From a virus: a stretch of 55,651 bases of DNA. The stretch spans positions 1 to 55,651 of the IMG/VR virus record IMGVR_UViG_3300027749_000134; one strand, 5' to 3'. Shown here one piece after another: positions 20,756-49,989 of the stretch. A model generated the notes under the pieces. That model was not told where the DNA came from, searched no databases, and saw only the letters and a program-made list of their open reading frames with translations. A program made the translations under genes and the position numbers. Each line of letters starts with the position of its first letter. The stretch's first letter is position 1.

Positions 20756-23700
20756 TTACCTGTTAGATAATTTTATTGGTGGTACAAATACCTGTGATGT
20801 ATAACGTGCTACACCTTTGGTTAAACGTACATCTTCCATGTATCCTTGGAAATAGTTAGGAGTGGCAGTACTTGTATTTAGATTACCAACAGCCACTGAT
20901 GGGAATGTATAATTATACGTATCTGTTTGTGTACTAACAACAAAAATACCATTGATAAACACACTAGTAACTGCATTCTGTCTTGCCACTGCAATATGTG
21001 TCCAAGTAGATGTGCTAATACTTAAACTTGTACTTGCAGTAGAAGTAGCCACTGTAGCATTAAAATATGAAAGTCTATCAGAATTGTATCTTAAACTTCC
21101 GCCGGCGCCAGCGCCACCGTGATCTAACAAATATGTCAAACTAGTATTCCATGTTGAACTTGTTGGATATATCCACATTTCCCAGGTAAAATCATTTGAT
21201 CCATATACGAACGATGTACTACTTGTAGCAATTAAAACATCAGAACTTCCATTGAAACTTAGACTATACTGATTATATTTCGTTGTTAGATTAGAAATAG
21301 TATATGTAGTTGTATTATTTGTTCTAATTGTAGTATTACCTGAATAATCAACTGCCTTGCTGTCGGTGAAGTTTAACAACAAGTTAGTAGGATTACCAGA
21401 ATACAATGCTAATGGTATCTGTGATGGATTAAAGGTACTATTGTATAGTGCAGTTCCTTTGATAATTCTAAAGTTAGACATATAACCATACAAGTATTCA
21501 TTGTATGTTGGAGCCGTTGTATACTGTACTGCTCCTATAGTCAATGGCGAGACAGTATCTACTACGGTAGCCACTGTGGAATATACACATACTCCATTGA
21601 GATATATATTGACAGCAGTACCATCATAAACATAGGCAATATGATTCCATACATTAGGCGGTACAATTGTAGTAGATATATATTGTGTACCATTATAAAA
21701 TGCTATATAACCAGTAGTTATAGCAAGATATCCTTCGTAGGAAGTATCAGCTGCACCGCTGGTATTTCTCTTAGCAAATAAAGCATTATAATTAGTATAA
21801 TTTCCAGGATGATTTAACCATAACTCAATGGTCCATGGTCCACCAGCAATATTCAATGAAGTTGTGTTAGGGAATATCATAACACTCTTGCCATTAAAAT
21901 ATCCACTTAGATTATTTGTAGAGAATGGTGAATATACCGTTGTCTTAGGTGCACCACCGGCTACTAAAGTGCTAGAATATTTTGAGTTATCCTTAACATA
22001 TTCATCCTGCAATGTTAACAATGATGTTTTGATAGCAGTTGTTGCTGGGAACGTTACCGTATTTGTTAATGTACCTACGTTCGATGTAGGAACACCAATA
22101 AATGATCCAAGGTAAAGTGCAGCATCTTTTACAACTCTAAGATTACTCATGTATCCGTTGAAGTTTTCAGAAGTATTTAAAACTCCACCTATAAAGAAGT
22201 TTTCATTGCTATCTGATATAATTGCTGATGTTAGATTACTAACAGATGATGTAGTGATAGCACTAAATGCATTAACTGTATCAGTTATAATGGTTCCTGT
22301 GCGTGTGTCATTATAAGTATCTTTAATGTAGTAAACATAAATCTTATAATTTGTACCTGCAAGCAATGCAATTGTTTCAGATTCTTGAGCAACATTGTTT
22401 ACATCGTCTATGGATATAGTTAAATTATTTCCAATTTTAATAGCATGAAGTCTAAAATTATTAGATGCAATAGCAGGATTAATAGCGTAATAAATTAAAC
22501 GTCTAGCTATAGGTAAATTATATGTTGCATACCACGCCCATTCAGCTGCCTGTGTGTATACCATGGTACTAAGATTAATATATCCCATGCCCAAATAACC
22601 AGTAGCTAATCCAATTCCATTAAATCCAATACTAAATTCAAAATCACTGGCATTAGTTGCACCAAATATATATGTAGATGATGTAATAGTAGTTGGATTA
22701 TTGGTCAATACTAATTGTGTAACTGGTGATCCAACAACCTGTGTTGTGGTCAATGTAGTAAACGAAGAAGTTGTAAAAATACGATTTCCATTTACATACA
22801 TACTTAATTGATGATAATCACGAAGAGTATTATATGTATAAGCAACATGATTCCATGTACCAGTGGTCAATGCAGTGGTAGAAACTTGAAAATTTTGATT
22901 AGATCCATCATAGGTAGTAAATGCTAGATAACCATTACTTGCATTTAGATATCCCTGATACGAAGTTGATGTATTTGAAGGAAGGATTGTTCCAAATGGT
23001 GATAGTACCGAAATAGTAGGAGAATTGACTAATGTTATTGATGCAGTATTATAACTATGATCAACTACCGTTGTTTCTGTCCCTATAAAGTTTGCAGTCA
23101 ATAATACCGTTGATGATGTTTCGTATACATATCCAGTGTAGATATATGTAGCATTAGTTGCCACTGATACAGGAGTAGTTGCAGTATTAGCTATACTTAG
23201 ATTATTTGTACTATTATCTACAATAATATTAGATTGTGCAGTTAATAACTGTACATAACTTGCTGTAGTAATTGCAGCAGTACCTGTACTACTAATTTGT
23301 AAATTTTCAAAAGGTGCAGTCTGTGGTGTAAATGATGATTGATACAATGCTTGTCCACTAACTATACGAAGATTAGATACATATCCTTTTAGATAGGTAG
23401 AAGTGGTACCATTATTATAATAATTATAATATCCAATATAACCAATATTGTTAGGATTTGAAAAATTCCAATCATTTGCGCCTGCTGTAAATGCAACTAA
23501 AATACCATTTTTAAACAATGAAAGTTCGTTGCCATTTCTAACCATGGCAATGTGTGTCCAAGTAATTAGAGGAACTCCTGCACCTGCGCCAACTATTAAA
23601 TTAGTAGTCCATGTGCCAGCAGCATCACTATTAACGCTCAGTGAATTAATATCTTGTCCAAGATTTAAATACCATCCTGTGGCATTATAACCATAAAACC

Positions 23701-26700
23701 CAGTAGGTGTTCCATAGGTAAATTGTAAAGGTTTTCTAAATTGCCCACTGGTGTTTGGTCCACCACTAGCACTAGTACCACTGGCAAATATAAATGACAA
23801 GGCACCTGTTCCGGCAATATTAAATCCACCGCCTTGTCCAAGAGGCGCAAGTGATGAATATACTAGTGTATTAGGATTAGCGATTGTATTAGGTGTTGTG
23901 CTTGAATCTGTTATATATGTGCCAGAAGATGCTACTTTGAGCAATAGTGAAGTATAGCTTGCAGTTGATATGGCTCTTATACCTGATAGTACACCAAACG
24001 GATTTAAAACACTATATGTAGCTGGAGAACTACTATTTGTAATACCAGTTATTACACCACTGCTATCTGTTAATATTGATCCACTATCACTGGCCAACAA
24101 TAATAATTTTGTATTATTAACAGTAGTTAATGGTGAAGTAGGTACACTGCCTGTGAAAGGACCTGTATAATATCCAGTGCCGACTATTAATCTAATATTG
24201 GTAAGATAACCTGTAAAATATGCCAGCCATCCACCAATATAACGTATCTGTGTAAAATTAACAGTGTTAGAAACGCTGCCGTTGAACGCTCCATTTAAGT
24301 ATATAGTCAAAGTTCCAGATATTCTCACCACTGCTACATGAGTCCATGCATTAAGAGTAAGGGCATTAGTACTACCTAAATAATCAGTAGTACTATAGTT
24401 TGTTACATGTATTCTATTGCCATCACTTTGTGTTTCAATACTCAAACCGCCACCTACTCCACTGGTTATGAACTTGGTAAAGTTTGCCATATTTGCAGTA
24501 GGGTAAATCCAAAACTCAATGGTGAAATCACTGGTACCAACTGCTAATCGACTGTCTACAGGCAAGATTATGGAGTTGGCGCCGCCTGCAAATGATAAAC
24601 TACCACTTGTGTTTGTCAGAGCGCCAGATTGAGTGGTATTTAATGCACTTGTAGGTATGGTAAAGTTGCCAACATAAACTGCTACTCCCTTTACAATACG
24701 TAGATTTGTTACATATCCATTTTGATAATAGGTATTGTATGCACCCATGGTAAGTGCATACGAAACAGAAGACTGCGGAGTTCCGATAATTGCTGTTGTA
24801 GTTTGTGCAACACCATTTACAAACAATGTAATACCACCCGAAGTCTTGGTCATAGCAATATGAGACCAATAGTTAAGAGGTACCGTATTTGTAGAAACTA
24901 CACTTTGTCCTCCGGCAGTTCCTTCATAGTAATAAAAACGAATTTGTCCTGTGGCGCTACCAATACCAAATGACCAATAATTTGTAGCAGCATTGAAGGC
25001 CATATTACCAACAGTGGTTGGTGGGGAATTAGTGGTAGCAGAATACCAACCAGTATACGTAGTTGGATATATCCAACATTCAATGGTATAATCAACTCCA
25101 GATGTATACCAATCAAACAATGCAGTTGAATAAGCTGTTGTTAGATACTGATTCGTACCATTAAAATACAAACTACCACCACTAATTCCAGTACTTGCTG
25201 GCAATCCAGGATATCCCCCAAGTGTATGCCATACTCCATTTTTACCAATCCACTGTTTATTTGTAGTTGGATTATATGCTACATTTATTACATCACCTAT
25301 TACATATGCACCTAACGCACCGGGTTGTAGATTATCATTAATATAGATATTGCCATCGTAGAGATAAATTCCAGAATAATTAGCACTACCAGAAACACTG
25401 GCTCTGGCCAAGCCAATTACAATTCCTTTATTTCCTGTTGTTGCAGTTATAGCTATTTCTAAATAGTAATTCTTATCTTCCAACAATGCTGTGGTTCTTG
25501 CACCACCAGAGGAAGATTGTATACCTATTGTAAAGGCACCAAACTGCCAAGTACCTGTGCCACCAGCTGACATCAATGAATAATCAGTTCCACTATCTTC
25601 CCAGCCCCAGTTTGGTGTTGAACTGCTTGTGTGTGAATAAGTAGAACTAGCTACTGGTACATAGTTAGGGCTAAGAGGAGTTGCTGTTCCAAACAGCACA
25701 CTAGCAGTAGTCGAATACCCAGACAAGTATACCCAAGCTTCAACTGTAAAATTAGTACCAGTTGAGAAACTAAAGGACGATGTTGATATCTGCAAATATT
25801 GACTGCTTGTGGTAATATTAAAAGCAGCACTATAGGTAGGATAGAATAATGTTGGATTAATAGTGGTACTAACAGTGGCTGTATTAACATTTATTGGCAG
25901 AGCTCTAGTGCTATAATCTGCGATAAGATTATATTGTGCTGTTAATAAAGATACATTGCTGGCGGTGGTGATAGCAAGAATATTTGTTCCACTATTTTGT
26001 GTGGTCTGCAACATCTGTGACGGTGCTGTAAAGTTGCCTGTGTATATTGCTTGTCCTCGAACAATACGAAGATTACTCAAATACCCTTTATAATTAGTAT
26101 TTCCATAAAATCCACTTGCTCCTATATTCAATGTTTCTGCAACACCACCGTCTATAGTTGATATATTATTCGTTGTACTTGATAATGTTCCGTCAACATA
26201 TAGATTAAATGTTGAGCTACTTCTAACAATAGCCATATGATGCCAAGAACCATCATTCAAATTAGTAGCAGTTGAAATTAAGTCTGTTCCTGTGTTATTT
26301 TTGCTATTAAAACTTAAACTACCTGTTAAATTTTGTTCATTGGATCCATTAAATGTAATCATCCATGAATTAGTTGATGCGGTATATGTAGTACCAGTTC
26401 CGTTGCCCATGATTTTTGAATTAGAAGTTGAAGTTGAATTCATCCAAAATTCAATGGTGAAATTATTACTACCCAAGGCTTGAACAGAACTAGTTGATAA
26501 CGATATTGGAGAATTATTAAAATTTATACTACCGCTAGCAGGCAAAGCAACCTGACGATATTTAGTCAATGGTGCTGTGGGTACTGTAAAGTTACTGGTA
26601 TAAAGTGCTACGCCGTTCATTGCACGAACATTAGATATATATCCTGCAAACTTATATCCAGTTTTTTGTCCACCTATGTAAGTATTGCCTATTGATAAAT

Positions 26701-29700
26701 CATAAGTTGATGAATTTACCTGTGTAAGACCAGCTTGGATACCATTGACAAACATTCGCATATTTGTACCACTTCTAGATACAGCAAGATGTTGCCATAC
26801 ATTATTAAGTCTTCCGGCACCCACGGCATAATCCCAACCGCTGCCGCTACCACCCCAACCCCAAGAGTTAGCAGTTGAACTATAACCCATGAAGAATCCA
26901 ACACCATTAATACCGCCACTGTATGGACTATTAGTGCTATATAAAACAGTAGTAGTATTAGTTATTGTAAAACTTGATGTACTTGTATCAGTTATATATG
27001 TTGCAGAGCTTGCTACATTTAATAATAATATTGTAGTGTTGCTGGCTACATTGGTAGAACTATTGGTACTTTGAGTTAATCCTAATGGAGTAGTGGGTAC
27101 TATAAAGTTGCTGGTGTATACTGCTTGACCGTTGACTACTCTAAAATTAGTTATATAACCATTATAGTAACCTGTATAAGATCCAGCTGTACCAGATTGA
27201 TTTTGACCACCTATATTATACCAAACACTGGTATCATTGACAACTGCGATGGCTCCAACATGTGACGACAAATCAACAGTTAGTGTTTCTCCTACTCCAT
27301 TAATATAGATTGTAATAGCTGTAGTACCAACACAGACAAATGCTATATGAGTCCATATACCTTTAGGCACAGATGCAGTGGTATAAACAACACTTGCGGC
27401 ACTGACACTAGTTGTGTAGGTAAAAGAGAATTTATCATAATTATTAATCCCTAATGCAAATCTACCGTTTACAGCCGATGCTACCCAATTTCCAAATATG
27501 TTATATTTGTCATAGGTATATCCTACATCTCCAGCACCTGATGCAATGTAATAGGTCCAAAATTCAATGGTCTTAGATCCAGTTCCTAGATTTCCAAAAG
27601 CATTGAAAAAACTAACTGAATTAGCAATTTTTAAATACTGACTTGTACCATTAAAACTCAAACTACCACCAATACCACTTGCTGATATAATTAAATTATC
27701 TGTAGACTGAGCAACAGTTGGATATACCCATGCTTCTACCGTAAAATCACTTTGACCAAAATTCAATGATGAAGTAGGAAGGGCTGTCAAGTATTGTGAA
27801 CTACCATCAAATTTTACACTGGCATTAAATATTGGACCCAGTGTTGTGCCGGCAACTATGTTAAAATTTGATATAAGAGTTCCAGCGGTATAACTTCTAT
27901 CAACAATGATATTTGATAGACCGTCAAATTGTCCAATAATTAATACGGTACCAGTGGTAATTGCATTGGTGTTAAATCCACCAAATGGATTACTAGATTG
28001 TGTGATAGTTAACGATTCATTGGGTACTGTGAAATTACCTGAATACACGGCTGTACCATTGACTATACGGAAATTAGCTATGTAGCCATTCATTAGATAA
28101 GTGGTGCTGTAATATCCACCTATGGCTAAATTTGTTGTATAGTTATAGTTAGTAGTATCATTGGTTGCAACAACATATCCAACTCCATTAACATATAGAG
28201 TCAATACCGTTGAACTACGAACCAATGCTACATGGTTCCAATTATTAGTAGACATTGGGCTAACTGCCAAATCTAAATATGTACCTGCAGTACCGTAGTA
28301 TATGCGCCAGCCGCTAGTAATAGATGCCAATGCAAGACCACTAATAGTTGCAGGTAATGTAGTTGCGGCTAAATGCCAAACACCATTATTAGTACCGCCT
28401 GCAATATAATTAACCCAACATTCAATGGTAAAATCACCAGTACCAAATTTAAATGCAGTGGAGTTAACCACAGCCAAATATTGATTAGTACCATTAAATG
28501 ACAAGGCATTGAATGAGCCTGCATTACGTTTTGCAAATAATACATTATTATTGGCGTAATTTCCATTGGGATTTACCCAGGCTTCTACAGTCCACTCTGT
28601 ACTGGTTGAAAAATTAAATCCGTCAAAATTAGCTGCACCAACAAAAGAGCTACCATCAAAATATGTACTATAATTTGTATTGAATGGTGAGAATGCTTGG
28701 AATGATGTAGCTGTGGTTGAGTTTGTAATTGCAAATGAATTAATTGATCTATCAATAAATGTAGTTTCGGTGCTTAATAATGTTAGTAGCACAGTATTAG
28801 TAATTGTAGATATATCACTCATAGGTGGAGTAAAACTTGTGATATATTTTGCTGTACCTTTTACTAGATGTAAATTACTGATATATCCATTAAATGTAGT
28901 TGCAGCATTACCATTAATATCTGAACCTATAGCAACTTTTATTGTATTATTAATAGTATTACCAGAACCACTAATTGTATAATTAATAAACGATGGTAAA
29001 GATGCATTATAATATGTTGCACCAGTATTACTCATAGTTGAGAGACCAGTTGTATCAACTATTTTATTGGCATCACTATTAACTAATAATAATAATTTAG
29101 TACCACTAACATTTGATGTTGCATCTAATATATTTGAAGAAGTTAATGGATTAAATGAACTTGTATATAAAGCAGTACCTGCAACAAATCTTACTCCAGT
29201 TATATAACCAACAAATGGATAAGATGCTGTATCTGTATATCTTCTACCCAAGGCAATTATTGTGGTACTAAGACTTATATTATTTGAATTACTTGCACTA
29301 CCTTGCAATATACCATTTCTAAAAAGTCTTACAGTACCAGATTGATTTGACAATGCCACATGAGTCCATGTATCAGTTACGAAAGTACTCAACCAAGGCA
29401 CAAGGGTGTTGGGACCACTTCCATTAGCAGGAATTAAGCCTCCACCTGCATCACGGGTTATCGCAAATCCTGAGGCCGCGCTGCTAACGCTGGCTAAAAA
29501 TGATGCATAATTAGCATCAGATCCTGTACTATTTAAATATACCCAACATTCTACAGTGAAATCACCAAGACCAACAGCAAACTCACCATTAGTAGCCGAT
29601 ACATTATTACCAGAAGTGATACTCAATGCACCTGCCGCTGACACTATTACTGGAGTTAATGTTGCGCCGGCAGGAGTACCAGATCCGTTTATCTGTCCAT

Positions 29701-32700
29701 TGATATAGAATGTAGTTAGCGCATTATATCTCACACATGCCACATGTGACCATTGATTCAATGGAACCGCGGCAGTTGAAAACAATCCTGTGCCTGCTCC
29801 AATTTGAAAATATAATAATCCACTGGGATAAATCATCCATACCCAATCAGTGGTAACAAGATAACTAATTGGTCCTACAATCACAGATCCATATACTGTA
29901 TTACGTGTTGTTGGATATATCCATGCTTCCATGGTAAAGTCACCGGTGCCAAAGGCAAACGAATTAGAAGAAGGTAAGGTCAAATAATTATATTGACTAT
30001 TGAAGTATGCACTACCACTACCACCAAATGGGGTGTATGGAGCAACCACAGTAGCAGTGGTAACATTTGCTGTCAATAATCTTACAAAATTAGAATTAGT
30101 TGAATTATCAATTAAATTATTTTGTAGAGTTATTAACTGTGTATTTGAACTTGTAGTTAATGCTGTTGTTGGAACAGTGGTAGTTGCATTATTGTAAATT
30201 GACCGACCAACTAATATACGAACACTGGAAATATAACCATAGAATGTTTGATTGCTAGCAGTGACAGGACTATTTAAAAATAATGTTTGTATTATAAATG
30301 CTGTGGTATTTGGGTATGCTATGCCCACCATATATCCATTGATATACATGGCAATGGTAGAACCATTTCTAACCAATGAAATATGATTCCAAGTATTTAA
30401 AAATACAGATCTAGTTGAAGTTATTAAATCAGTACCACCTGTGGCTTGGAATCTAAGTGTTCCATTAGCCGCAAGATATAAAACAGGTACATTAGCAGTG
30501 GCACCACCGTTGGTTCGCCAATCAAGTATAATGCCACCCGATGAGTTATATAATGTTGGGTAGATCCAGCATTCAACGGTAAAGTCTCCGCTGCCCAATG
30601 CTGATGTAGCTGCTGTTCCAAAATTTAAGTTTTGACTACCAGCAGTAGAAGTACTAAAATATACACTGCCACCAACCATGGATTTATTGTATTCACCGGG
30701 TATTTTATAAGGTGTGAATTTAGTTATAGTTGGAGAACTGTTTAAAGTTCCAGTGGTAATATATTGATTATAAACACTGTCGTCTACATGATTATTGTTT
30801 GCTGCAATTAATAAACTTGTATTATCAATTCTTGCCAATGGTGAGCTAGATGGTGTAAAATTACCAGTATAAAGTGCTGTGCCATTTACCATTCTAAAGT
30901 TAGATAGATAGCCAGGATACATGCTGGTTATAGCAGAACCAGCTGTGCCTATAAGCATACTTGCTGTGCTATTGTAGGGAGTAATAATTTGTGAAGGAGG
31001 AATTGCAGTTAAGAATCTTGTACTAGTATTAAATGTAATAGCGTTGGTATTTGTTCCACTCCAGGGATTTGTTGGTTGCTGTGTGGTTAACACTCCGGTG
31101 GGTGGTACAAAGTTTGTTCCAGTATAAACTGCCACACCGCTGACTATTCTAAAGTTGCTGATATAACCTGTTAGATAAGTTGATGTGGCTGTACTAAATC
31201 CCATGTAACCAAGACGTAGAGTATTCTGTTCTGTATAACTGGTAATTATTGTTGATGAAGTTCTAACACCATTTACATACATTGACGCAGTAGTACCTAG
31301 TCTTGAGAATGCCACGTGATTCCAAGTGTTCAGTGTAAATAATTGTGTTGGTAAAGATGAAACACCTAGTAATAATGATATATAACTTGCAGTTAATACA
31401 GCCTGTGTATTAACACCTCCAAATTGGGTTGAAATTGATAGACTAATTGGAGGAGTAAAGGTACCGGTATATACTGCTAAACCTTTAACTATGCGTATAT
31501 TGTTAATATAACCTGGGAAGAACCAAGTTGGGCTTGATGCATCATTGTTAGCACCAATAAACAATGGATCGGTACTGGCTATAATAGTTGAAGCAGCTAC
31601 TGTTGCAACTTGAATTCCGTTAAGATATAGATAAAAATTAGCACCATTTCTTGTCCATGCTACATGATTCCAGGTGTTTAAACTAATAGTTCCACCACTC
31701 AACCCAGAAGCATTCAATGTTACAGCAACAGCGCCGCCAGTAGTAGTATAAAGAATCCAGGCTCTACCTGGAGCAGCATGATATAAAGCAAGTAAGGTTA
31801 AAGATGTAGCACCGAATGATGTTTGATAAAACCAACATTCAACAGTAAGGTCTCCTGAACCAAATGCAAATGCTGCATTATTTGCCACAGATACATAATT
31901 ACTGGTACCATTGAAACTCAAACTACCAGAAGAACCATAATAATTGCTAGGATTTAATGTTGTACCATTATTTGTTGGTGTAAACCCAATGCCGCCTTGA
32001 TCAGTAAGAAGTTGTGCAAGGCTAGGTGATGGAGATGAAGTAAAAGAAGTTGAAACAAACGTTGTCACCGCACCAGAAGATCTATATCCTAGTGTCATGT
32101 AATAGTTGTTTATACTCCATTCCCACCCAGTAGTGCCAACACCGTCGTATGTTCCAGCTATCAACATACTAGAATAAGTTAAGGTATTTAAATTAACCCA
32201 AGCCTCAACGGTGTGATCACCATAGGTCAACCAACCAGTAGATGATGTTGCGCTTAATGAACTATTACCATTAAAATATAAACTACGTAAAATAGTAGTA
32301 AATGGATTTAATGTACTTAGACTAACTGTGCCTGAACCTATGGTTATCGCAGAAGTGTTGGTACTATAATCCACTATGTTAGTAGTGTACGGTAATAATG
32401 TTAATAACGATGTGTAAGTACCAGTGGATATTGCCTGTACATTACTACCTCCGTAGGGATTGGCAGTTTGTGTAATGGTTAATGGTTGACTGGGTCTAGT
32501 GAAGGCGCCGGTATATACTGCTAAACCTTTAACGATACGTAAGCTAGAAATATAACCGTTAAAAAAACTTGTCAATGCTGCGCCGCCGGAATAAGATGCA
32601 GCTATTTGTTGGGCACTAGCAACATATGTATTAGCATCTGTGTAGGTACTACCTGTTTGTGTTCCATTCAAATACAACTTAGTTGATCCACTTAAACGAA

Positions 32701-35700
32701 CCAATGCCACATGATACCAAGTGTTTATAGACAACGCTGAACCGGTAATTCTTATTACACTATTTGTATAGTAAGCAATAGTTCCTGTAGTTTGAGTTAT
32801 ATACAATGTAGGATAAAGTCCCTCTGTGCTTGCTAGTCTACCGTCAATTAGCAACATATTAGCAGCACCATTAATTGCTGTAACATATATCCACATTTCA
32901 ATAGTAAAATCAGTACCACTTGCATAACCAAATGCTGCATTGGATGGTACAGTTAATGATTGACTTGTACCATTAAAGTACATACTACCACCCCATACTG
33001 TAGGGTCGCTAGTAGTTGGAAAGGGGGAGAATGGCTGTATGCTTGGGGTACCGTTAACTGTTAGTGCAAAGGCATTAGTACTATTATCAACAAATATATT
33101 ACTTTGGCAAGTTAGTAAACTTGTATTAGTGATTGCAGTTAATGGAGCAGTTGGGGGTGTAAAAGTACTAGTGTAAAGAGCCAATCCGCTTACATATCTT
33201 AAATTACTAATATTTCCAATAAATGGTTGTGAATTAACACCAGTATAATCCATAAATCGACCAATATGAACTGCACTAGGATTGCTACTATTAAATTGAG
33301 ATTGTGTGCCTGATCCTACCTGTACACCATTTACATAAAAAGTTATTGCAGAACTGTTACTAACCACTGCCACGTGCTGCCACGTATCAAAATTAATTAC
33401 TCCTGCAGAACTAGTTACAGAATAATCACCGGAACTAGGACTATAATAAAATGACACATCTCTAGCCGTACTGGTTGCTGCGTTAATATATATAGCCCAA
33501 TCTCTATTTGTAGTTGTTCCTTTGCTTATAATTGTAGCATACGCTATATTAGTACTACTAGGATTTATCCAGCATTCTATAGTGAATGTTCTAACCGTGC
33601 TTGGATTCATTGCAGTTCCAGAAACCGTTAAATCAAGATTATTGCCGCCGGAAGTATAATTACTCCACCCACTTGAACTAATAGGCGGAGCAAGATTAGT
33701 TGCAAAAGTATTACCCACGCTGGTTATATAATTAGGAATAACACTATAATCTACAGCAATACCACCTTCACTGACAATAGGAGAAGATCGGCCTATCAGC
33801 AAACTTGTACCAGCGGTAATAGCTGGTGTATTATTACCATTTTGATTGGCCAATTGTGTGGTAGTTAACTGTGATGATGGTACAGTAAAGTTACTGGTAT
33901 AGATTGCTGTACCTTTAATAATACGTAAATTGGAGATATATCCTGTCCATGGTTCAGCAGGCCACGTGGCATAAACTCCGCTGATTCCAATAATTAATGG
34001 ATTATTACTGGATAAATTAGTGCTTCCTAGCGGAAATGCCTGTGTTGAAGTTGTAACGTCATTCCCATTTAACCATATTTTTCCAGTGGTGCCTGATCTT
34101 GTTGCCGCTATGTGATACCAAGTATTACCAACAATGGTACTTGGTCCACCCCATCCATTTACTGCCCAAGTATCCCACGATGCAAGTCTCCAATAGTTAC
34201 CAATATATTGTAATTCCCATGAAGCATTATTAAAAGGAATTATATTACCTACAATTGCGTGTTGAGCCCCATCAAAAGGAACCGTGCTTGGCCAATACAC
34301 CCAAGCTTCTACGGTAAAATCACCAGTTCCAAACGTCCAAGCACTATTAGCAGGTATTGAAAGGAATGATGTTGATGTACCCCTGAAGTACATACTATTA
34401 AATGTACTAGTTGATGAGATAGGTGGATATAAGTTTGCCGCAGCAACTCCTGTATTTGTTACTACAAAATTATTAGAACTATAATCATCAAAGAAATATC
34501 TACTAGGATTAACAAATCTACCCGTTAATAACTGTGTAGTGTTGGTGAAATTAGCCGACGCCGCAGTAAGTGCGGCATTTTGTATATTAGACAAAGGACT
34601 AGTTGGTACTACAAATAGTGAACCAGAATACAATGCTAGACCTTTGACTATACGTACATTACTGATATAACCGTTGAAGAAATAACCATTCCCAGAAGTC
34701 CATCTACCAATTGATCCTACTAAGGTGTTACTGCCTATTGCCGACGCTGCCGCAGTAGGAGTATTGCCAATTCCATTAATATAAATTGTAATATTTCCTG
34801 CAAGACGTACTACTGCAAGGTGGGCCCAAGCATTTAAAGGTATTGTAGCAGTTGTTGTTATGGTCGACACCAATGAAACACTCGTGGCCCATTGGAAATA
34901 AACAACACCTGAATTGTTTATCCAAAATTGGCACGATCCAATTGTATATGCACCTACAAGACCATTCCAAAAATCTATTATCATGCCGCCCGGGCCGCTT
35001 CCATAGGTTATTGGATATACCCAACTTTCCCAAGTAAAATCACCAGTACCAAAGTTAAATCCAGCGTTGGCCGGTAAATTTAAATAACTTGATCCATTAA
35101 AATATAAACTATGATATTGACTTTGATCATAAGGATCCAGTGAGGAGTATGTTAGATTACTCGGTACAGCAACAGCAGAATTAATACTAGAATCGGAATA
35201 AGCACTTCCATAGGTAAATGCTTGCTCTTGACCATTAACATATACACTGAATTTTAGCCCCGAACGAACAAAGGCAAGATGAGACCATGTACCTGTTGAT
35301 ATAGCTATTGCAGAAGTAATTGCGACACTATTAGTTGCTGTGGTATTGGCCAATGTCAATGTTGGTTTATTTGTCGAAGATAAAGATATACCAAATGGTG
35401 CAACATTGTTGGTATTGAATTGTCCAGCAATATAAGCAGTCCCTGTGTTGGCTGTAAGATATGCCCAGGTTTCTATGGTCCAATCATTACTACCCACTGT
35501 AAAAGCAGGTATATCTGGTACAACCAAATAATCAGTGAGCCCGTTGAAGTATGTACTCCAGTTATTACCAAATGGGCTGAATGTTCCTTGCCCTGGAAAA
35601 TTTGAAGAAACAGCACCTAAATTGTATGCACCATAATCAACAAAATTAGATGGTGCTAGACCATAGGTGGAATATTTAAGAGTTAATAAACTTGTACCAG

Positions 35701-38029: not shown

Positions 38030-38049
38030 CTCTTCTTTCTCTATATTAC

Positions 38050-41000
38050 TTATTTAACCGAAGATGCTTTCTGGGGAATTGCGAAACCAGAATAATATGT
38101 ACTTGTTGAAGTAATTGAGTAACGTGCTACACCTTTGGTAATGCGTACTTCGTCTATATAACCATTAAAATATCCAACACCTGCTACACCAAATCCTATA
38201 CGTATAGTTGAATTAGTAAAGTTTTGTGTTATACTACCAGAATACGGATTACCTTCTTGTATTCCGTTTAAAAATAATACAAAAACATTATTTCTTCTAA
38301 CCAATGCTATATGATGCCAGAAATTTGTTGGCAACGGAGTTGTACCAGTAATATAAATTAAACCAGTTGTACTAAAATTTAATGTACCGGTGGCAGTTAA
38401 ATAAATGTCAAAACCAACATTAGCAAGATTTATTGTTCTCATATCAAATAATGATCTAACTGTAGCAGGTTGTAATTGTGTACCAACCCAAGTTGATACT
38501 GGCAATGCATAAACCCACATTTCTACAGTGAAGTCGGACACTCCTAATGCATAGGTAGCTGTAGATCCAGCTGGTGTTATACTAAGATAATCGGATATAC
38601 CATTGAAATAAAAACTTCCTGGATTATACTTAACCACTGAGGTAGATATTATAGGACCATCCTGCGGAGTAAGATTAGTTAGTGCAGTTTTATCAATCAA
38701 AGATGCTTGATTAAAATTCAATAATAAACTTGTAGAAGTACTTAGATCAACAGTGGTCAATGGTGCTAAAGGTGGGTTAAATGTATTTGAATATAACGCA
38801 CGTTTAACTATTCTAAAGTCTGAAATATAACCATTAAAATATGATGTAGCTGTTGGGCCATTTCTACCTATTACTAGTTGACCTGCTGAATAATTAGTGG
38901 TTGTGTTATATCCCAGTGTTGGAGAACCATTTTGGAATATAGATATTAATGGACCACTTCTAACCATGGCAATATGATTCCAAGTAAATGGAAGTATAGC
39001 ACGATTTGAATTAGGTGAAGTAGAATTATTTGTAGCTATAGAATAAAATCCAGATGTTGCTAGGTTCAAAGCTAATGAATCGGGTCGAAGAGTATTACCA
39101 TAATTCCCTGCAAGATCAAATACAGTCTGTGCAGCGGCCAATGAATTTACATAAAGCCACATTTCTATGGTAAAATCACCCCCAGTGTTATATGAAGATG
39201 AAACTGAATTTACTGTAGCTATGGCACTGGTACTATAATCTGTGCTAGCAGATACCCAACCTTGTGCATTATATGCTGCATCTGCTGCAATGGTAGTCCC
39301 ACCTGAATATGTTGCATTAGTAAATCCTGCTGGTGGAGAATAAGTATTGGCTGTATAATATCTAAATGTACCAGTTGTCGATGAACCAAAGCTGGCACCG
39401 CTCATAATTATAAAACGTAAATTTCCAGTTCCGGGTATAGTACTTCCTGCGGTGCTTACAGGATCTAAATACCATACAGCATTTCTACCAATCCATACTT
39501 TATTTGTTGATGCATTATAGGCTATTCGTATTATATCACCGCTGGAAAATGGGGCTGTAAGTGTAGTTCCACCAGTCATTCCCCCATAGCCGGTGCCATC
39601 ATACGCATATATTGATGGCACATTACTATATCCGCCGGTGCTAGTATCTCGTGCTAATCCAAATAAAGGAAAATCACCACTGTTATATACTACTTCAAAA
39701 TAGTAACTGCCTGAATCACGTAGAGCAGTACTTCTTGCACCGCCTGAACTACCTTGAATATTGTTAAAAGAAAAACTAAAAATACCAGTCGCAGCAGATT
39801 GAGCAGCACTAATATTTGTTATACTTAAACCTGATCCACTAAGTTGTAATGCGGTTGATGTACTAGTTAATGTATTTGTATATATAAAATCTGATGTACC
39901 ATTAAACAATGCACTACCACCTAATGTTGCAGGATTATATGCAGATCCTAATGGGAATGGTGAGAATCTTTGTATCTTAGGTGTACTAGTTGCTGTGCCT
40001 GTACTAAGAGCAATTGTAGATGTACTACTATCAACAAATTGATTGCTGTTCATAGTTAGTAAAACTGTATTAGCACTGGCAGGTAATGGACTAGTTGGTA
40101 CACTAAATGATGGTAATACGTTAGGATAAGTTCCAGTGACAAACACAGGTGTAACAGCAGGAGTTATAGAAACTGCATTTATAGAGCTATCTACAATTGT
40201 TGCATCTGTGGGTAATAATGTTAATAAAACTGTATTTGTAATTGAAGTTAAACTAGTTGTAGGCGGTGTAAAGTTAGAAGTATATATTGCTGTACCTATA
40301 ACCAAACGTACATTGCTAAGATAACCATTAAAACAATTACTAGCAACATCCCACTTCCGCCCAATATACAATGTACTTGTGGTGATTGTTGCTACAGCAA
40401 CAGATCCAGGAGAAACTGCAATTTTAACTCCATTTAAATATAAATTATGTTGAACACCGTCATACACACCTGCAACATGACTCCAACGATATAATGGTAA
40501 TTGAGTAGATGAAAGTGCTCCAATCATACCAGCATTGTAAAAACCAAAAAATAAATTAGATCCGCCGTCGCCCGGCGAGGAAGTACAGGTACATAGAATA
40601 AAATGTGCATTGTTGTTATATATAGCTGTACCAAAAATATATTGACCAGCTGTAACGTTTGGAAATACCCAACACTCCAAAGTGTATGGTGTTAAATATA
40701 AACCTAAAGCAGGTAAACTATACGATCTTGAAATACTTAAACTTTGATTAGTTCCATCAAAATACAAACTCTTCTGATTCAAATTTGTAGGATCACGACT
40801 ATAAAGTGCTGTCCCTGATACGGCTCTTAAATTACTAATAAATCCATTATAGTATTTGGCACCATACGCACCTATTACCATACCCTGAGTTTGTGTGGTA
40901 TTAGTAAGTGTGCTAATAGTTGAAGCTGTGGTAATTTGATAAATTCCATTAACAAAAATTGTAGGTGTTCCTGCATTAACTACCCACGCCACGTGATTCC

Positions 41001-44000
41001 ATGAACTAGTTGATAAGAAATTAGTTGCTGTTATAAAATAATTTGTATTAGCAGAATCTCTCCAATATAGCATTGGTCTATTTTGAGAATCAATGCCCAC
41101 ACTCCATGCTAGCTGTCCACCTGTAGGTGATGCATCACCTAATATAACCGATGATGTGCTGGCAGTTTGAAATCCGTTTGGATATAACCATGATTCAACA
41201 GTGAACGTTTTATTTGCTCCAAAGAATGTATTTTGTGCAAACGCTGTTCCTGTGGAAGTAAAACTAAAATAATCTGATGTACCGTTAAAAGCTGTGCTCC
41301 ACAACGAACCATATGGACTAAATGATCCTTGTGTAAATGTAAGAGATCCTGTATTAAGATTAGAAGTAAGGTAGTTATAACTTGTATCTATCACAGCTCT
41401 ATTATTAATAGTTGATGATGTGATTGTTCCAGATACATAAGTTGTTGTATTAAATAGAGTTGATGTAGAAAAACTTAAAGTTCCTGTAGCAGTAAAAATA
41501 TAAGTTTTATAACCACCGGTATTAATAAATGTTGCGGTTCCCGGAGTATAAGTTGCATCTTGTATTACACTATTATATCGAATGACAACTACACCAGAGC
41601 TACCAGTGGTACCAGAAGTAGATGTTGAGCCACCAAGTCCGCCACCACCTGTACCATTGGACGGTATTGTATAAGGAGTATTTGTATTAACATAAACAAC
41701 ACCTCCAACATTGCTGACCACATTAGCATATATGCTTGAATCATATGTACTTTGTGGAACCAATAACAATGATGTATAACTTGCTGTTAATATTGCCTGT
41801 GTATTACTACCGCCATATGGATTGGCAGCTTGTGTGGTTTGTAATGAACTTGTAGCAGTGGTAAAGTTGCCAGTATATACTGCTAGACCTTTAACTATAC
41901 GTGCATTAGTTATGTAGCCAGTGAATGGTTGTGTACCTGCACTACTTGCCCCAATGGATATAGTATTTGTTGCAGCATAAAGGCTGGGTGTACCAATTGA
42001 ATATGTTACAACAGAAGTACCATTTAAGTATAAAGTAAATGTATTACTATTTCTAACAAACGCAATATGATTCCATTGATTTAACGGTATAACTGTACTC
42101 GATATACTATCTGTTAGTACGGCCGTGCCATCGGTAGATAATAAAAATCTAGCATATCCATTTGTATCATTGCTGGTGATAACTGCCCAGGACAGAGTTG
42201 TACCGCCAGTAGATCCGGACCATTGGCAAAAAAATATGTTTTGTGCTGTCCAGGCTACAGATCTAAAAACCCAAGCTTCAGCAGTAAAATTATTTGTACC
42301 AAATTGGAATGTTGTACTGGTTGGAACAGTCAAGTAACTACTACCATTAAAACTCAAACTACCGGGTATACCATTACCATAACTAATAGCACCGGCTGTG
42401 GCTCCATTACCAGAACCGCCGCCGGCAAAATAAACAGATGTTCCTACAACTTGTCCAACGCCTGCATATGCCGCTATAGCCGCTGTAATTATAGTAGATG
42501 ATGAACCTATACCACCAGTGCCTCCAACAGTGGTAGGGCTCGCAACGGTTCCAGTAGTACCGGTGGTGCCAGCACCGCCACCACCACCGCCAGGATATGC
42601 AGTAATGTTAATATTAATGTTAATAAACCCATAAGTAACAGGTGCACCGGCATTTCCTTGAACTACAATGCCGCTGCCACCAATAGTTTGCCCGGTACCG
42701 CCACCGCCGCTGCCGCCCGCGCTACCTGCTTGGCCATAGGTTGCACCGCCACCACCACCATAGGCCACGATATTTGTATTACTAAAACTAATACTTGAAT
42801 TAGTACCACTACTACCATTATTTGGACTTGCACCACCAGTACCACCAGATCCTCCTGAGCCCACAGTAATAGTATATGTGGTGGTGTTTAATGTATATGT
42901 ACCATCACTATTAAGAGTACCAGGTAGTGGATACCCAAGGGCTGCTAACAAACCACCACCACCACCACCACCACCACTAATACCGGCAACAGAATATGAT
43001 ATTACAGAGGCTGCTGATGGAACATTTGAATTAAATGTAACTCCGCTAGGATTTGCTGGAGTAAGAGGACTACTACTACTATCAGTTAGATATGCTCCGC
43101 TACTTGCTACATTTAATAATAATTTTGTATTAGTAACATCGGCCATGGGTATACCCGGTATAAACCCACTTGGGAAAAGTGTAGTAGTATACGCCGCAGT
43201 TCCATTTATTACCCTAACACCAGTGATGTATCCAGTAAACGGATCGTTATAGCGGCTGTTGACCGATTCATCACCTATACTAAACGGATAGCCTGAATTT
43301 CCAATAGTATCTGTAATTTGATTACCACTATAGCTATAAAATACCCCGTTGAGCCAAAGATTATGATTTCCGTTATAGCGAACATAAGCAACATGATACC
43401 AAGTAAACAACAGTATCCCGCCGGCGGGGGCGGCGGCGGGTTGGGAATACACGCCGCCGGTTCTTCTAGTTACTATATAGAGACCACTGGAGTACATAAT
43501 AAGACTGTATCCGTCGGTGTCACCACCACTCTGCCCACCATTGGAAAATACCATTTTGCCATGACTATTTGGGCCAGTAAATGAAGTTGGATATATCCAC
43601 ATTTCTACTGTGAAATCACCAGTTAGCAGGAATGCCGATGCACTATACGGAACTGTTATGCTATTACCACCACTAAAACTTAAACTACCACCCGTCCATG
43701 GTGATCCAGACAGAGACGGTAACGTTGTATTTTCCCATGTGACACCACCGTTATTGGTTACTGGGAAAGCATTTGTACTTGAGTCAAACAATTTAGTGAG
43801 ATCTGTATTAAACAACAATAATACTGTGGTATTGGCTCCAGCTGACAGAGGCGTGGCTGGGGTAAACGTAGTATTGTATAATGCCTGTCCTTTGGTTATA
43901 CGAACATTGGTGATATATCCAGTCCATCTGTATGATGAGCCAAGGCCACTCTGCCCAATATATAGTGCCGAAGATTTAGAGACGTTAGCTGGTGTTAAAT

Positions 44001-47000
44001 CAGCACTACCGATGTCTTGAACGTTAGTAACATCTACACCTCCTACCCATATTTTTCCAGTGGTGCCAGATCTTGTGGCTGCTATGTGATACCAGGTATT
44101 GCCAACTGTTCTTCCTTGTCCTACTATATTATTTCCAGTTATGCCCCACAATGGGATATCATTGACGCCTACCAAGGTGCCATAACCAACAAATCTCCAT
44201 GTATTGTTATAGTATTGCAGTTCCCAAAAACGATTTTCAGCAGAGGTCATATTACTTAAAATTGCGTATTGACCAGTGTCAGTGGGCATGGTGCCTGGCC
44301 AGTATACCCAGGCTTCTACGGTAAAATCACCAGAGAATGACCATGCCGATTGATAGGTAGCGGCAATGGTTAAATATTGACCATTCCCAGCAAAACTTAC
44401 AGCACCAGATATTGTTCCTGCACCACTAACTGAAATAGTAGATGTATTGCCGCCTCCGCCGCCTCCGCCACCTGCAACTACCAAATAGTCAATGGTTACT
44501 GCAGATCCAGTACTTCCATACACCGGTAGTTTATATGTAGTTGGTTGATTAGCTGATAATAATAGTGTGGTATTTTTAAAATATGTATCACTGGCACCTG
44601 TAGGATATCTATCTGCATCACCTAAGTTTGCAGGATAGCGGAATACAACAATACCACTGCCACCAGCGCCACCAGCGCCTCGCCAGTCAAACGCACCAGC
44701 AATTTGACTGCCACCACCTCCACCACCTCCTGTATTTGTTAGGCCTGCAATTGCAGGAAGAGTACCTATCCCATCTTTATATCCTGATCCGTCACCACCA
44801 CCGCCTAATCCACCGGGGCCTCCGGTTCTACCAGCATTAGCGGGATAATCGCCACCACCACCACCGCCACCATAAGCTGTAGAAACACCTGTATAATTAA
44901 AGTAAGCACCATCGCCGCCGCGCCCGCCTTCCCACCCTACAAAGCCTTGGCTAGCAACTTCTATTAAACATAGTTGTCCTGGACTAGCATATCCGCCACC
45001 GCCGCCAGAACCGCCGCCGCTAGTTCCATTGATACTTCCTCTACCACCGTTGTAGCCTTGTCCAGGAATACCTGCACCACCTGGAGCATCATATCCGCCA
45101 CCGCCCCCACTTCCGCCTATTTGTCCTGAGCTAGCCTGGGCACCTCCACCACCACCACCGCCTACTGCTCTTACTAAATCACTTTGTATATTTGTAGAAC
45201 TAAATGCATAGAACGGAGACATCATCGATGATGTTGTTACTGCCGTTCCAGATGTTGTAAACGTAACATTATTATTAGAAAAATCAGTGGTTATTGAACT
45301 GTTATTTTGACTAACCAACGTCAATAAAACAGTTTGAGTAGTTATGGCAGCAATTGTACTTCCTGATATTACATTTATACTTTGGCTTGTTGTTAAATTT
45401 TGTGTAGGAGGAGTAAAATTTCTTGTGTATACGGCGGTGCCTTTTACTATACGTACATTTGTAATAAACCCTGAAAATTTACTCGCACCAGCGGCATCAC
45501 TGCCAATTACAAGGGGAACGGCAGGATCGTCCCATAATGTAAAACTAGTGGTGATCGATGCTGTTGAAACACCATTTGCCCATGTTGAAAATGTATTTCC
45601 AAAACGTGTAGCGGCCACATGAGACCAAGCATTGGCAATAACAGGAGTTGTACCCAATGATGTGACAAGCCACCCACTACCGCCGCCATTATTCATAGAA
45701 TATAATTTAACAAGATTATTTTCTAACAATAGAATAAATGCACCTGCACTAGAAACAATACTTGCATTCTTTGTTATAATTTGTTGTTGTGCTATATTCA
45801 CCGCAGTAGGATATATCCAACATTCAATAGTCCAATCTCCTGAGCCAAATGTAAAGTCTGCTGAACTTGGTATTGTTAGATATTGTGTACTACCATTAAA
45901 ACTTAAACTACCACCGGTGCTGAATGGAGTAGCAGCATTGTATGTAACGCTGCCAACATTGGTGATATTAGTATTTCTTAGAGAACTATCATTTAAATAT
46001 GCACCAGAAGATGCTACATTTAATAATAATGATGTATATGTAATGTTAGTTACTGGATTAGTATATACAGTTAACGGCGTAGATGAAGGAACAAAAGTAC
46101 CTGTATAAACTGCCACACCATTGACCAAACGTAAATTACTTATATATCCAGCATAAGTTAGATATTGAGCGCCACCTGCTATGGATATATTAGTAGTAGT
46201 AAAAGTTATTGCATTTGAATAGTTGTAGGTAAGGCTATCAGGTACACCATTGATCCATAAATTAAAATAATTTGATTTTCTTGTTAGTGCTATATGTGTC
46301 CATTTATATGCAGTAATTGTTCCATTGCTAAGAAAGTATTGTGTACCGGGTGGATTCACAGACAATGAATATCCTTGTCCAAACCCAAGTTTATAATTAG
46401 GATCTAAATAAAAGTCCCAGCTTCCGGTAGGTACATCAGGATTTCTTGTATCAATCAACGTGCGATTATAATTTGCACTTGTTTTTTCAGGTCCTGCAGT
46501 GGGATAAATCCACATCTCAATGGTAAAATCACTAGAGCCAAAATTAAATGATGAATTAGATGCTCTTAGTTTAGTATTAAAGAAATATCCCGAATAATAT
46601 GAAAATGTAGTAGATGTTGGATAGAATAAACTATCGCTGCCATTTCCACCGTTTAATCCCGCTGATTGATTTGTTCCTGTGAGAATTGCAGCAGTGCTAC
46701 CACCAGCACCTACCACTACGTTCCAAGTTGTTCCAGAAGTTATATACCCTGTTCCAGCAGGAACTGGATTTGGATAATATCCTGTATAATTACTTAATGT
46801 AGAAAATCCTGTTGGAGGAGCATAGATATTTTCATTACCTGCACGAAATAAACCGTTTAATGTTCCACCTGCTGCGGCACCAGAAAACATTATTAGTCTT
46901 ATAGCATTGGTTCCTGTAAACCCTGTTCCACTTACAGAATTTGGATCAAGATACCAGGTATTATTTTTACCAAAAAATACCTGTGCGGGATTTGCATAGC

Positions 47001-47706
47001 ATTGATATGCAATTTGCAAGGTATCACCTGCAACAAAATTTCCTAATGCTGTTCCACCGGTTGTACCACCAAATCCTGTACCACCAACAAGGTATATACA
47101 TGGAACATTAGTATAACCACTCAATGGTACACCATCTCTAATTAATCCAACAAGTACATCGGCACGCGGTAGTGAGCGTATATATATTTCAAAATAAAAT
47201 GCTCTATTTCCCTGAGCATCAGCTTCGGGCAAAGGCATACTTCTTGCGCCGCCGCTGGCATTTTGTACATTACGCCAATCAAATAGAAAATTACCAGTTG
47301 CTCCTGTAAAATCAGTAACATTAGTACCAGTAATCCAACCACCTGCAACAGCAGCAACAGAAGATGTTGTTGCTGCAATATACAACGGGCTTGGAACTAC
47401 CCTAGATACTGGAGTTAATTGCCCAGTAAGTATTCCTCCAGCACCGCCTCCAGCGGCACCTGCCTGTCCGTTAAAAGAAGAACCACCGGCACCACCACCA
47501 CCAACTGCAAACCACTCTAGTGGGTATACAGTGGAAGTAACTGTGAATATACCCGATGAGGTAAAAATATGGGCAATATACGTTGTGCCATTATAAGTAT
47601 AGGAAGTAATTGTACCACCACGAGCATATGTACTAGTAGTTACATTAGCCGCCGTAGCAGTTGATACATAACGTTGTCTGCGAATTATACCTAAATCAAA
47701 TGGCAT
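38050..47706 (-). CDS. Giant LamG/SPRY/Gly-rich adhesin, paralogue (3218 aa)
   Basis: Head MPFDLGIIRRQRY followed by HIFTSSGIFTVTS parallels the 5757-aa protein. The layout is more mixed: an early Gly-rich patch, then an SPRY-like domain (about residues 115-330: SGGARSMPLPEADAQGNRAFYFEIYI, VLVGLIRDG, LQIAY......FFGKNNTWYL); then about nine LamG domains marked by GYITNVRIVKG-type motifs, interspersed with three Gly-rich blocks (around residues 860-1010, 1080 and 1590-1750) and a second SPRY-like insert (about 2680-2860: SGGARSTALRDSGSYYFEVVYN). The last LamG domain (YFNGYIDEVRITKGVARYS) matches the last domain of the larger paralogue. It starts 10 nt after the preceding stop without a clear ribosome site, so translation is probably coupled. 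Confidence 0.9.
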   Translation of the reverse strand: MPFDLGIIRRQRYVSTATAANVTTSTYARGGTITSYTYNGTTYIAHIFTSSGIFTVTSTVYPLEWFAVGGGGAGGSSFNGQAGAAGGGAGGILTGQLTPVSRVVPSPLYIAATTSSVAAVAGGWITGTNVTDFTGATGNFLFDWRNVQNASGGARSMPLPEADAQGNRAFYFEIYIRSLPRADVLVGLIRDGVPLSGYTNVPCIYLVGGTGFGGTTGGTALGNFVAGDTLQIAYQCYANPAQVFFGKNNTWYLDPNSVSGTGFTGTNAIRLIMFSGAAAGGTLNGLFRAGNENIYAPPTGFSTLSNYTGYYPNPVPAGTGYITSGTTWNVVVGAGGSTAAILTGTNQSAGLNGGNGSDSLFYPTSTTFSYYSGYFFNTKLRASNSSFNFGSSDFTIEMWIYPTAGPEKTSANYNRTLIDTRNPDVPTGSWDFYLDPNYKLGFGQGYSLSVNPPGTQYFLSNGTITAYKWTHIALTRKSNYFNLWINGVPDSLTYNYSNAITFTTTNISIAGGAQYLTYAGYISNLRLVNGVAVYTGTFVPSSTPLTVYTNPVTNITYTSLLLNVASSGAYLNDSSLRNTNITNVGSVTYNAATPFSTGGSLSFNGSTQYLTIPSSADFTFGSGDWTIECWIYPTAVNIAQQQIITKNASIVSSAGAFILLLENNLVKLYSMNNGGGSGWLVTSLGTTPVIANAWSHVAATRFGNTFSTWANGVSTASITTSFTLWDDPAVPLVIGSDAAGASKFSGFITNVRIVKGTAVYTRNFTPPTQNLTTSQSINVISGSTIAAITTQTVLLTLVSQNNSSITTDFSNNNVTFTTSGTAVTTSSMMSPFYAFSSTNIQSDLVRAVGGGGGGGAQASSGQIGGSGGGGGYDAPGGAGIPGQGYNGGRGSINGTSGGGSGGGGGYASPGQLCLIEVASQGFVGWEGGRGGDGAYFNYTGVSTAYGGGGGGGDYPANAGRTGGPGGLGGGGDGSGYKDGIGTLPAIAGLTNTGGGGGGGSQIAGAFDWRGAGGAGGSGIVVFRYPANLGDADRYPTGASDTYFKNTTLLLSANQPTTYKLPVYGSTGSAVTIDYLVVAGGGGGGGGNTSTISVSGAGTISGAVSFAGNGQYLTIAATYQSAWSFSGDFTVEAWVYWPGTMPTDTGQYAILSNMTSAENRFWELQYYNNTWRFVGYGTLVGVNDIPLWGITGNNIVGQGRTVGNTWYHIAATRSGTTGKIWVGGVDVTNVQDIGSADLTPANVSKSSALYIGQSGLGSSYRWTGYITNVRITKGQALYNTTFTPATPLSAGANTTVLLLFNTDLTKLFDSSTNAFPVTNNGGVTWENTTLPSLSGSPWTGGSLSFSGGNSITVPYSASAFLLTGDFTVEMWIYPTSFTGPNSHGKMVFSNGGQSGGDTDGYSLIMYSSGLYIVTRRTGGVYSQPAAAPAGGILLFTWYHVAYVRYNGNHNLWLNGVFYSYSGNQITDTIGNSGYPFSIGDESVNSRYNDPFTGYITGVRVINGTAAYTTTLFPSGFIPGIPMADVTNTKLLLNVASSGAYLTDSSSSPLTPANPSGVTFNSNVPSAASVISYSVAGISGGGGGGGGLLAALGYPLPGTLNSDGTYTLNTTTYTITVGSGGSGGTGGASPNNGSSGTNSSISFSNTNIVAYGGGGGATYGQAGSAGGSGGGGTGQTIGGSGIVVQGNAGAPVTYGFINININITAYPGGGGGGAGTTGTTGTVASPTTVGGTGGIGSSSTIITAAIAAYAGVGQVVGTSVYFAGGGSGNGATAGAISYGNGIPGSLSFNGSSYLTVPTSTTFQFGTNNFTAEAWVFRSVAWTAQNIFFCQWSGSTGGTTLSWAVITSNDTNGYARFLLSTDGTAVLTDSISSTVIPLNQWNHIAFVRNSNTFTLYLNGTSVVTYSIGTPSLYAATNTISIGASSAGTQPFTGYITNARIVKGLAVYTGNFTTATSSLQTTQAANPYGGSNTQAILTASYTSLLLVPQSTYDSSIYANVVSNVGGVVYVNTNTPYTIPSNGTGGGGLGGSTSTSGTTGSSGVVVIRYNSVIQDATYTPGTATFINTGGYKTYIFTATGTLSFSTSTLFNTTTYVSGTITSSTINNRAVIDTSYNYLTSNLNTGSLTFTQGSFSPYGSLWSTAFNGTSDYFSFTSTGTAFAQNTFFGANKTFTVESWLYPNGFQTASTSSVILGDASPTGGQLAWSVGIDSQNRPMLYWRDSANTNYFITATNFLSTSSWNHVAWVVNAGTPTIFVNGIYQITTASTISTLTNTTQTQGMVIGAYGAKYYNGFISNLRAVSGTALYSRDPTNLNQKSLYFDGTNQSLSISRSYSLPALGLYLTPYTLECWVFPNVTAGQYIFGTAIYNNNAHFILCTCTSSPGDGGSNLFFGFYNAGMIGALSSTQLPLYRWSHVAGVYDGVQHNLYLNGVKIAVSPGSVAVATITTSTLYIGRKWDVASNCFNGYLSNVRLVIGTAIYTSNFTPPTTSLTSITNTVLLTLLPTDATIVDSSINAVSITPAVTPVFVTGTYPNVLPSFSVPTSPLPASANTVLLTMNSNQFVDSSTSTIALSTGTATSTPKIQRFSPFPLGSAYNPATLGGSALFNGTSDFIYTNTLTSTSTALQLSGSGLSITNISAAQSAATGIFSFSFNNIQGSSGGARSTALRDSGSYYFEVVYNSGDFPLFGLARDTSTGGYSNVPSIYAYDGTGYGGMTGGTTLTAPFSSGDIIRIAYNASTNKVWIGRNAVWYLDPVSTAGSTIPGTGNLRFIIMSGASFGSSTTGTFRYYTANTYSPPAGFTNATYSGGTTIAADAAYNAQGWVSASTDYSTSAIATVNSVSSSYNTGGDFTIEMWLYVNSLAAAQTVFDLAGNYGNTLRPDSLALNLATSGFYSIATNNSTSPNSNRAILPFTWNHIAMVRSGPLISIFQNGSPTLGYNTTTNYSAGQLVIGRNGPTATSYFNGYISDFRIVKRALYSNTFNPPLAPLTTVDLSTSTSLLLNFNQASLIDKTALTNLTPQDGPIISTSVVKYNPGSFYFNGISDYLSITPAGSTATYALGVSDFTVEMWVYALPVSTWVGTQLQPATVRSLFDMRTINLANVGFDIYLTATGTLNFSTTGLIYITGTTPLPTNFWHHIALVRRNNVFVLFLNGIQEGNPYSGSITQNFTNSTIRIGFGVAGVGYFNGYIDEVRITKGVARYSITSTSTYYSGFAIPQKASSVK

Positions 47707-48149: not shown

Positions 48150-48171
48150 GATATTTATTAATCTAAATATC
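48150..48171 (-). promoter_or_regulatory. Late-type promoter box within a perfect palindrome
   Basis: AATAAATA on the minus strand (48159-48152) lies inside the inverted repeat GATATTTA-TTAATC-TAAATATC. It is 30 nt before the ATG of the 134-aa gene and is the last box before the two giant adhesin genes. Confidence 0.5.
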
Positions 48172-49981: not shown

Positions 49982-49989
49982 TATTTATG
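49982..49989 (-). promoter_or_regulatory. Late-type promoter box CATAAATA
   Basis: Minus-strand CATAAATA overlapping the stop codon region of the upstream fibre gene, 32 nt before the ATG of the 254-aa gene. Confidence 0.55.

Follow-up and report, generated by a model that had tools for sequence, protein, structure and literature searches.

The larger of two giant LamG proteins encoded side by side in a virus record is built by insertion of domains into domains. At the level of sequence, its landmark motifs follow a nested order, the split domains that form its frame are conserved in related phages, and the LamG domains lodged in that frame are mobile. The two proteins are probably branched multivalent adhesins of a tailed phage, combining a conserved frame of vertical descent with swappable LamG cassettes acquired by exchange. 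The window, i.e. the whole stretch of DNA analysed, is a linear IMG/VR record of 55,651 bases with both giant LamG frames on the minus strand (Table 1).

Two giant LamG genes and their surroundings

The uninterrupted frames of 5757 and 3218 aa described in the sequence-only reading are borne out, both being open end to end in the record, with calculated masses of 606.4 kDa (large protein) and 332.9 kDa (small protein). Their size, called extreme there, has precedents: in the isolated cyanophage S-IOM18, a protein annotated as virion structural is encoded over 19,164 bp (about 6,387 aa), and the profile of PHROG 701 has 6,136 positions.

A repetitive gene in a metagenome contig may be suspected of being an artefact, created when short reads of repeated LamG genes are misjoined. 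This is highly improbable here. The longest exact direct repeat across the 27 kb is only 26 nt, so that collapse or short-read mis-joining is unlikely, and the frames are open across 17 and 9.7 kb. An equivalent gene pair with the same heads recurs in two viral contigs assembled independently of the window's record, G001 (39.5 kb; 1930 and 4966 aa) and G002 (73 kb; 1771 and 5611 aa), where the same frame domains and nested order are found.

All 34 matches to Laminin_G_3 (PF13385) in the whole record fall inside the two giant frames. All but one of these stretches (33/34) exceed the curated cut-off, singly or with neighbours, and whole-protein E-values are 1e-136 to 1e-164 (pieces scanned). The landmark parse finds 22 LamG domains in the large protein and 9 in the small, in line with the earlier estimates of about 22 and 9, and the LamG sandwich fold is supported by profile matches and predicted structure. 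Gly-rich modules are likewise present, Gly_rich_2 (PF21722) reaching 48.8 bits in the large and 54 bits in the small protein, above the curated cut-off of 24.3 bits. The SPRY-like modules fared less well: among four candidate stretches scanned, two match SPRY (PF00622) weakly, at best with 19.2 and 14.7 bits (E 0.0013 and 0.033) and thus under the cut-off of 26.3 bits, and the other two give no match.

Both proteins start with a related head (MPYDLGVIKRQR in the large, MPFDLGIIRRQR in the small; 42% identity across 77 aa) followed by Gly-rich sequence, as had been claimed. Their last LamG domains are also shared, but diverged, given 33% identity across 220 aa. The idea of a duplicated multivalent fibre pair therefore stands as to a related pair with a shared head; the simple array that it assumed misses the nested LamG domains. 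In the small protein, the Gly-rich domain that starts in the head is interrupted at about 46756-47331 by a module without family match and then by two LamG domains; its sequence returns near aa 840 and stops at aa 1018 with GIVVFRYP. Alignment places a further LamG unit (b-c-d-a) in the last strands of another LamG domain (aa 2089-2304 and about 2530-2545), the returning part of which is short. Judged by sequence, the interruptions and nesting of the small protein make a weaker case than those of the large one.

A sole promoter upstream of the pair had also been proposed. The T4-late-promoter-like AATAAATA is indeed present, and in the short gaps before the two giant genes no such site was found. 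A single 27-kb transcript for both giant genes is plausible. T4-late-like NATAAATA sites precede several genes, that of the 134-aa protein ahead of the pair among them; as TATAAATA by itself occurs in the window less often than expected by chance, the promoter assignment relies on position. Sigma-70-type matches number 46, about as many as the 44 expected by chance.

The 134-aa protein (PHROG 7759) matches at least 600 stretches of viral contigs, with identity up to 73%, and in some of these contigs it sits near LamG genes. Other fibre-like genes are also among the neighbours of the pair. A 1863-aa collagen-like frame of tail-fibre type (49985-55576, minus strand) has a TTG start near the window edge, past which it may continue. 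Elsewhere, two adjacent small genes (6002-6412 and 6532-6927, minus strand) have a leader of ∼45 nt in common (aaactgataaataaaagcatacaaagtttcatagggaaacttaaaaaa) that is almost the same in both and contains GATAAATA. In a 1123-aa protein (10102-13473, minus strand), distinct stretches have PHROG matches of glycosyltransferase-like and of methyltransferase-like type. The window's exonuclease has many phage matches, all under 50% identity, and no phage match was found for a 471-aa protein. A T4-type major capsid gene occurs in 5 of 10 related or compared contigs; the window, G001 and G002 do not extend far enough to show whether they have one.

Nested layout of the large protein

A 215-position LamG unit model was made from full-length copies in the giant proteins and their relatives, and whole proteins were aligned to it with jumps allowed and with composition correction; omission of this correction gave many false short pieces. 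Four landmarks mark the unit, namely a (LLLN..D.S), b (DFTVEAWVYP), c (NTWNHVALVR) and d (GYISNLRIVKG). In a tandem array their order is abcd abcd, whereas in the large protein out-of-phase jumps occur, each closed later by a complementary jump. The order was parsed with the grammar S -> b S c S d S under fixed score limits, using landmarks b, c and d only. Motif a, which is often weak, was left out; its apparent one-to-one count with b-c-d is partly judged by eye.

The 66 b/c/d landmarks of the large protein resolve into exactly 22 domains as well-nested brackets, with remainder 0. With the fragment counts fixed, 12,870 of 3,603,600 fragment orders parse (0.36%). The large protein of G001 parses in the same manner (60 landmarks, 20 domains, remainder 0), and that of G002 falls short by one weak b at about aa 4735, visible by eye. 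As the window, G001 and G002 phages are related, these parses are not independent trials.

Six of the 22 domains are split by inserts in one of two loops. F1 spans aa 839...2369 and encloses F2 (1929...2231), F3 spans 2687...3044, and F4 is interrupted twice (3145...5054...5288), with two more split domains inside it (3418...3743 and 4083...4819). By the b/c/d parse the deepest inserts sit inside two hosts, and some inserts are split in turn; if motif a is counted, partly by eye given its weakness, some units look nested deeper. Across the three phages, the breaks at 17 split sites are confined to the b/c and c/d loops, and the N part ends before, or where, the C part resumes (model positions 79-104 and 103-135 for b/c breaks, 156-161 and 162-173 for c/d breaks). 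The A1-B-A2 arrangement, in which a host domain is interrupted by a complete domain, is thus found by the parse, by complementary breaks and by joint conservation of the F1-F4 halves. Both window-only splits are drawn from the bracket parse, as their halves have no consistent orthologues.

These data bear on a simpler explanation, a plain tandem series of LamG units with useless, truncated repeat fragments left behind by unequal recombination. Internal repeats are abundant and related phages do have plain tandem arrays. However, random truncation should leave unmatched pieces, and none remains of the 66 motifs; breaks occur in two loops only, and in two relatives each of F1-F4 is conserved in both its halves. 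A degraded array is therefore quite unlikely.

With the same parse, one set of other viral contigs (40 LamG frames, 180 domains) is mostly plain tandem, as are most of about 40 LamG frames in a second control set, and no clear split domain was found among the LamG frames of other viral contigs. A few other frames (among them L148, L150, L164, L177, L160, L192 and L144) have apparent nesting that seems, on reading of the segments, to stem from truncation at an edge or from an overlooked motif, and L206 is too diverged to judge. A 3736-aa frame (L097; positions 124001-143000 of the 199-kb contig G003) has three b-c-d sets without a, then three a motifs, twice, an order that perhaps represents another nested arrangement.

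Structure prediction was applied to an insert-type unit and to a nested piece. The AlphaFold2 model of an insert-type b-c-d-a unit (scores in Table 1) is a compact LamG sandwich, with the trailing motif-a strand in a block of pLDDT above 90. By Foldseek it matches laminin LG, pentraxin and PAPP-A lectin-like structures (prob 1.00), and also phage ConA-like proteins (best TM 0.85). The insert-type unit is thus predicted to adopt the LamG fold. The model shows that a motif a lying C-terminal to the other three can complete the sandwich, the native register being left undecided by a prediction whose alignment rows are mostly tandem arrays. The nested F2 piece gave a low-confidence model (mean pLDDT 56.5, pTM 0.42) that matches LG domains; the order of its strands, 6+5 enclosing 11 inner ones, is no more than compatible with a split outer sandwich.

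Table 1. Positions of the features discussed, in the window (- denotes the minus strand)
Feature	Position	Strand	Remark
AATAAATA, T4-late-promoter-like	48152..48159	-	31 bp upstream of 134-aa gene
134-aa protein, PHROG 7759 (annotated unknown function)	47717..48121	-	just upstream of the pair
Small LamG protein	38050..47706	-	3218 aa, 9 LamG domains and interrupted Gly-rich domains
Head of small protein	46588..47706	-	MPFDLGIIRRQR motif and start of Gly-rich domain, module-interrupted
Two LamG inside Gly-rich domain of small protein	45211..46608	-	aa 367-832
LamG unit (b-c-d-a) in last strands of another small-protein LamG	40117..40794	-	by alignment
Large LamG protein	20756..38029	-	5757 aa, 22 LamG domains, nested architecture
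Head of large protein	37130..38029	-	MPYDLGVIKRQR motif and uninterrupted Gly_rich_2, aa 1-300
Frame F1, N part	35219..35656	-	aa 792-937
Insert in F1, c/d loop	30992..35218	-	four LamG and frame F2 bearing its own insert
Frame F2, N part	32075..32431	-	aa 1867-1985
LamG insert in F2, b/c loop	31367..32074	-	aa 1986-2221
Frame F2, C part	31082..31366	-	aa 2222-2316
Frame F1, C part	30830..30991	-	aa 2347-2400
Anchor M, whole conserved LamG between F1 and F3	30152..30829	-	aa 2401-2626
Frame F3, N part	29675..30157	-	aa 2625-2785
LamG insert (b-c-d-a) in F3, c/d loop	29003..29674	-	by landmark parse
Frame F3, C part	28802..29002	-	aa 3010-3076
Frame F4, N part	28520..28801	-	aa 3077-3170
Insert in F4, b/c loop	22985..28519	-	1845 aa, seven LamG, two themselves split
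Window-only LamG insert (b-c-d-a)	26861..27682	-	splits LamG aa 3400-3449 / 3724-3824
Window-only insert	23828..25630	-	weak-SPRY module and two LamG; splits LamG aa 4020-4133 / 4735-4908
Insert-type unit b-c-d-a modelled with AlphaFold2	23981..24604	-	pLDDT 89.5, pTM 0.89
Frame F4, middle part	22730..22984	-	aa 5016-5100
Non-LamG module in F4, c/d loop	22247-22729	-	aa 5101-5261
Frame F4, last part	22070..22246	-	aa 5262-5320, beyond non-LamG insert
Anchor C, conserved C-terminal LamG of large protein	20759..21394	-	by reciprocal best hits and comparison with small protein

Conserved frames and mobile inserts

Pairing of the split halves can be assessed without any grammar, by matching the b, c and d pieces separately to the domains of G001 and G002. 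For each of F1-F4, all three pieces resemble one and the same G001 domain (with one tie, in F3), and 10 of 12 pieces agree on the same domain in G002. Together with the unsplit anchors M and C, F1-F4 are reciprocal best hits in all three phage comparisons, at 49-80% identity. In F2, the halves are strongly conserved in the alignment but the core of the insert is not. Plain global alignment of filled and empty sites was discarded in favour of half-by-half matching, as it misplaced gaps owing to the likeness of inner and outer C halves. A search for relatives with the head of the small protein as query matched none, although G001 and G002 hold this head.

Inserts follow other affinities, their best relatives often lying at a different site, in the other gene or in a different phage. 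The insert in F1 of G002 resembles a domain of G003 (88%), and a LamG domain of the window's small protein resembles both G003 (81%) and the insert in F1 of G001 (71%). Similarly, the insert in F4 of G001 resembles that in F1 of G002 (80%). Shared insert DNA blocks measure about 510-600 nt, corresponding to one b-d core. Some inserts stay put (the window's at 987 and that of G002 at 1305 match at 65%), so that turnover is frequent but not total. Acceptor sites also differ in occupancy between the phages, since domain 2 is whole in the window and LamG-split in G001 and G002.

Proposed mechanism and known systems

A mechanism for these branched adhesins can be outlined. The giant pair would probably be displayed on the virion via the shared short head. 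The large protein would be built on a LamG frame, with F1-F4 split and M and C whole, where the b/c and c/d loops of host domains serve as acceptor sites for complete LamG domains. Inserted domains may carry inserts of their own, making the chain branched rather than a simple string. Inserts would act as cassettes of about 510-600 bp that pass from one acceptor site to another, from gene to gene within the pair and from phage to phage, the frame being passed on vertically. Such a protein would likely serve to bind surface glycans multivalently, its binding domains being replaceable with the scaffold left intact. The scheme presumes that the proteins are on the virion, that they bind glycans, that the chain branches in space and that exchange proceeds by homologous recombination.

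Phages are usually thought to alter binding by tip swapping or by mutating one domain. The chances are about even that the pair embodies a host-and-cassette tree, with split LamG frames passed on vertically and cassettes moving between loops, genes and phages, a diversification unlike that by mutating retroelements or tip swapping. If so, a frame with accepting loops would allow binders to be exchanged or added in mid-protein without breaking the protein, and would help to account for the growth of chains of 5-6 thousand residues that can still fold. LamG repeat counts in giant viral proteins miss split domains. The large protein and its relatives also provide natural examples of recursive insertion within one fold, useful for studying how such chains fold.

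Another possibility is that the large protein is a known giant LamG protein of the cyanophage baseplate or virion type, its nesting being a local oddity without functional meaning. PHROG 701 (virion structural protein) and baseplate-wedge families do match through the LamG part, where most of the best PHROG stretches of the giant proteins lie, and the annotated S-IOM18 protein is of comparable size. These matches are to repeated LamG units, however, and need not extend to a baseplate domain; moreover, the combination of conserved frames and mobile inserts suggests that the layout is under selection. This alternative keeps a small but real chance, and branched adhesins with exchangeable cassettes remain the preferred reading. 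S-IOM18 SWYG_00065 (annotated as similar to gp7) and PHROG 701 resemble the giant proteins as virion structural proteins of several thousand residues with LamG/ConA-like domains, a likeness of annotation, size and domain type, without evidence there of the head motif or frame domains. The ConA-like protein WJZ48124.1 of the isolated phage DSL-LC04 (1365 aa) has the same type of LamG unit (44% to the unit consensus), but its units, about six, are in plain tandem with no split domain seen, unlike those of the large protein.

In the literature searched, mostly outside subscription papers, nested LamG phage adhesins with exchangeable inserts and recursive phage adhesins are undescribed. LamG3 and SPRY lectin-like domains, the same domain types as here, occur on jumbo-phage tail fibres with a proposed role in adhesion, and the accessible text of that report describes neither nesting nor cassette exchange (PMC7824862). 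A parallel in layout is cyanobacterial RpoC2 SI3, where, as in the large protein, domains are recursively inserted inside each other, in RpoC2 over six levels. It differs in that its domains are hybrid-motif domains of an RNA polymerase and not of an adhesin, and movement of inserts between sites or viruses is not reported in the accessible part of that study (PMC13114784). Giant LamG virion proteins and nested insertion are thus each known already; the nested LamG layout is the unexpected part.
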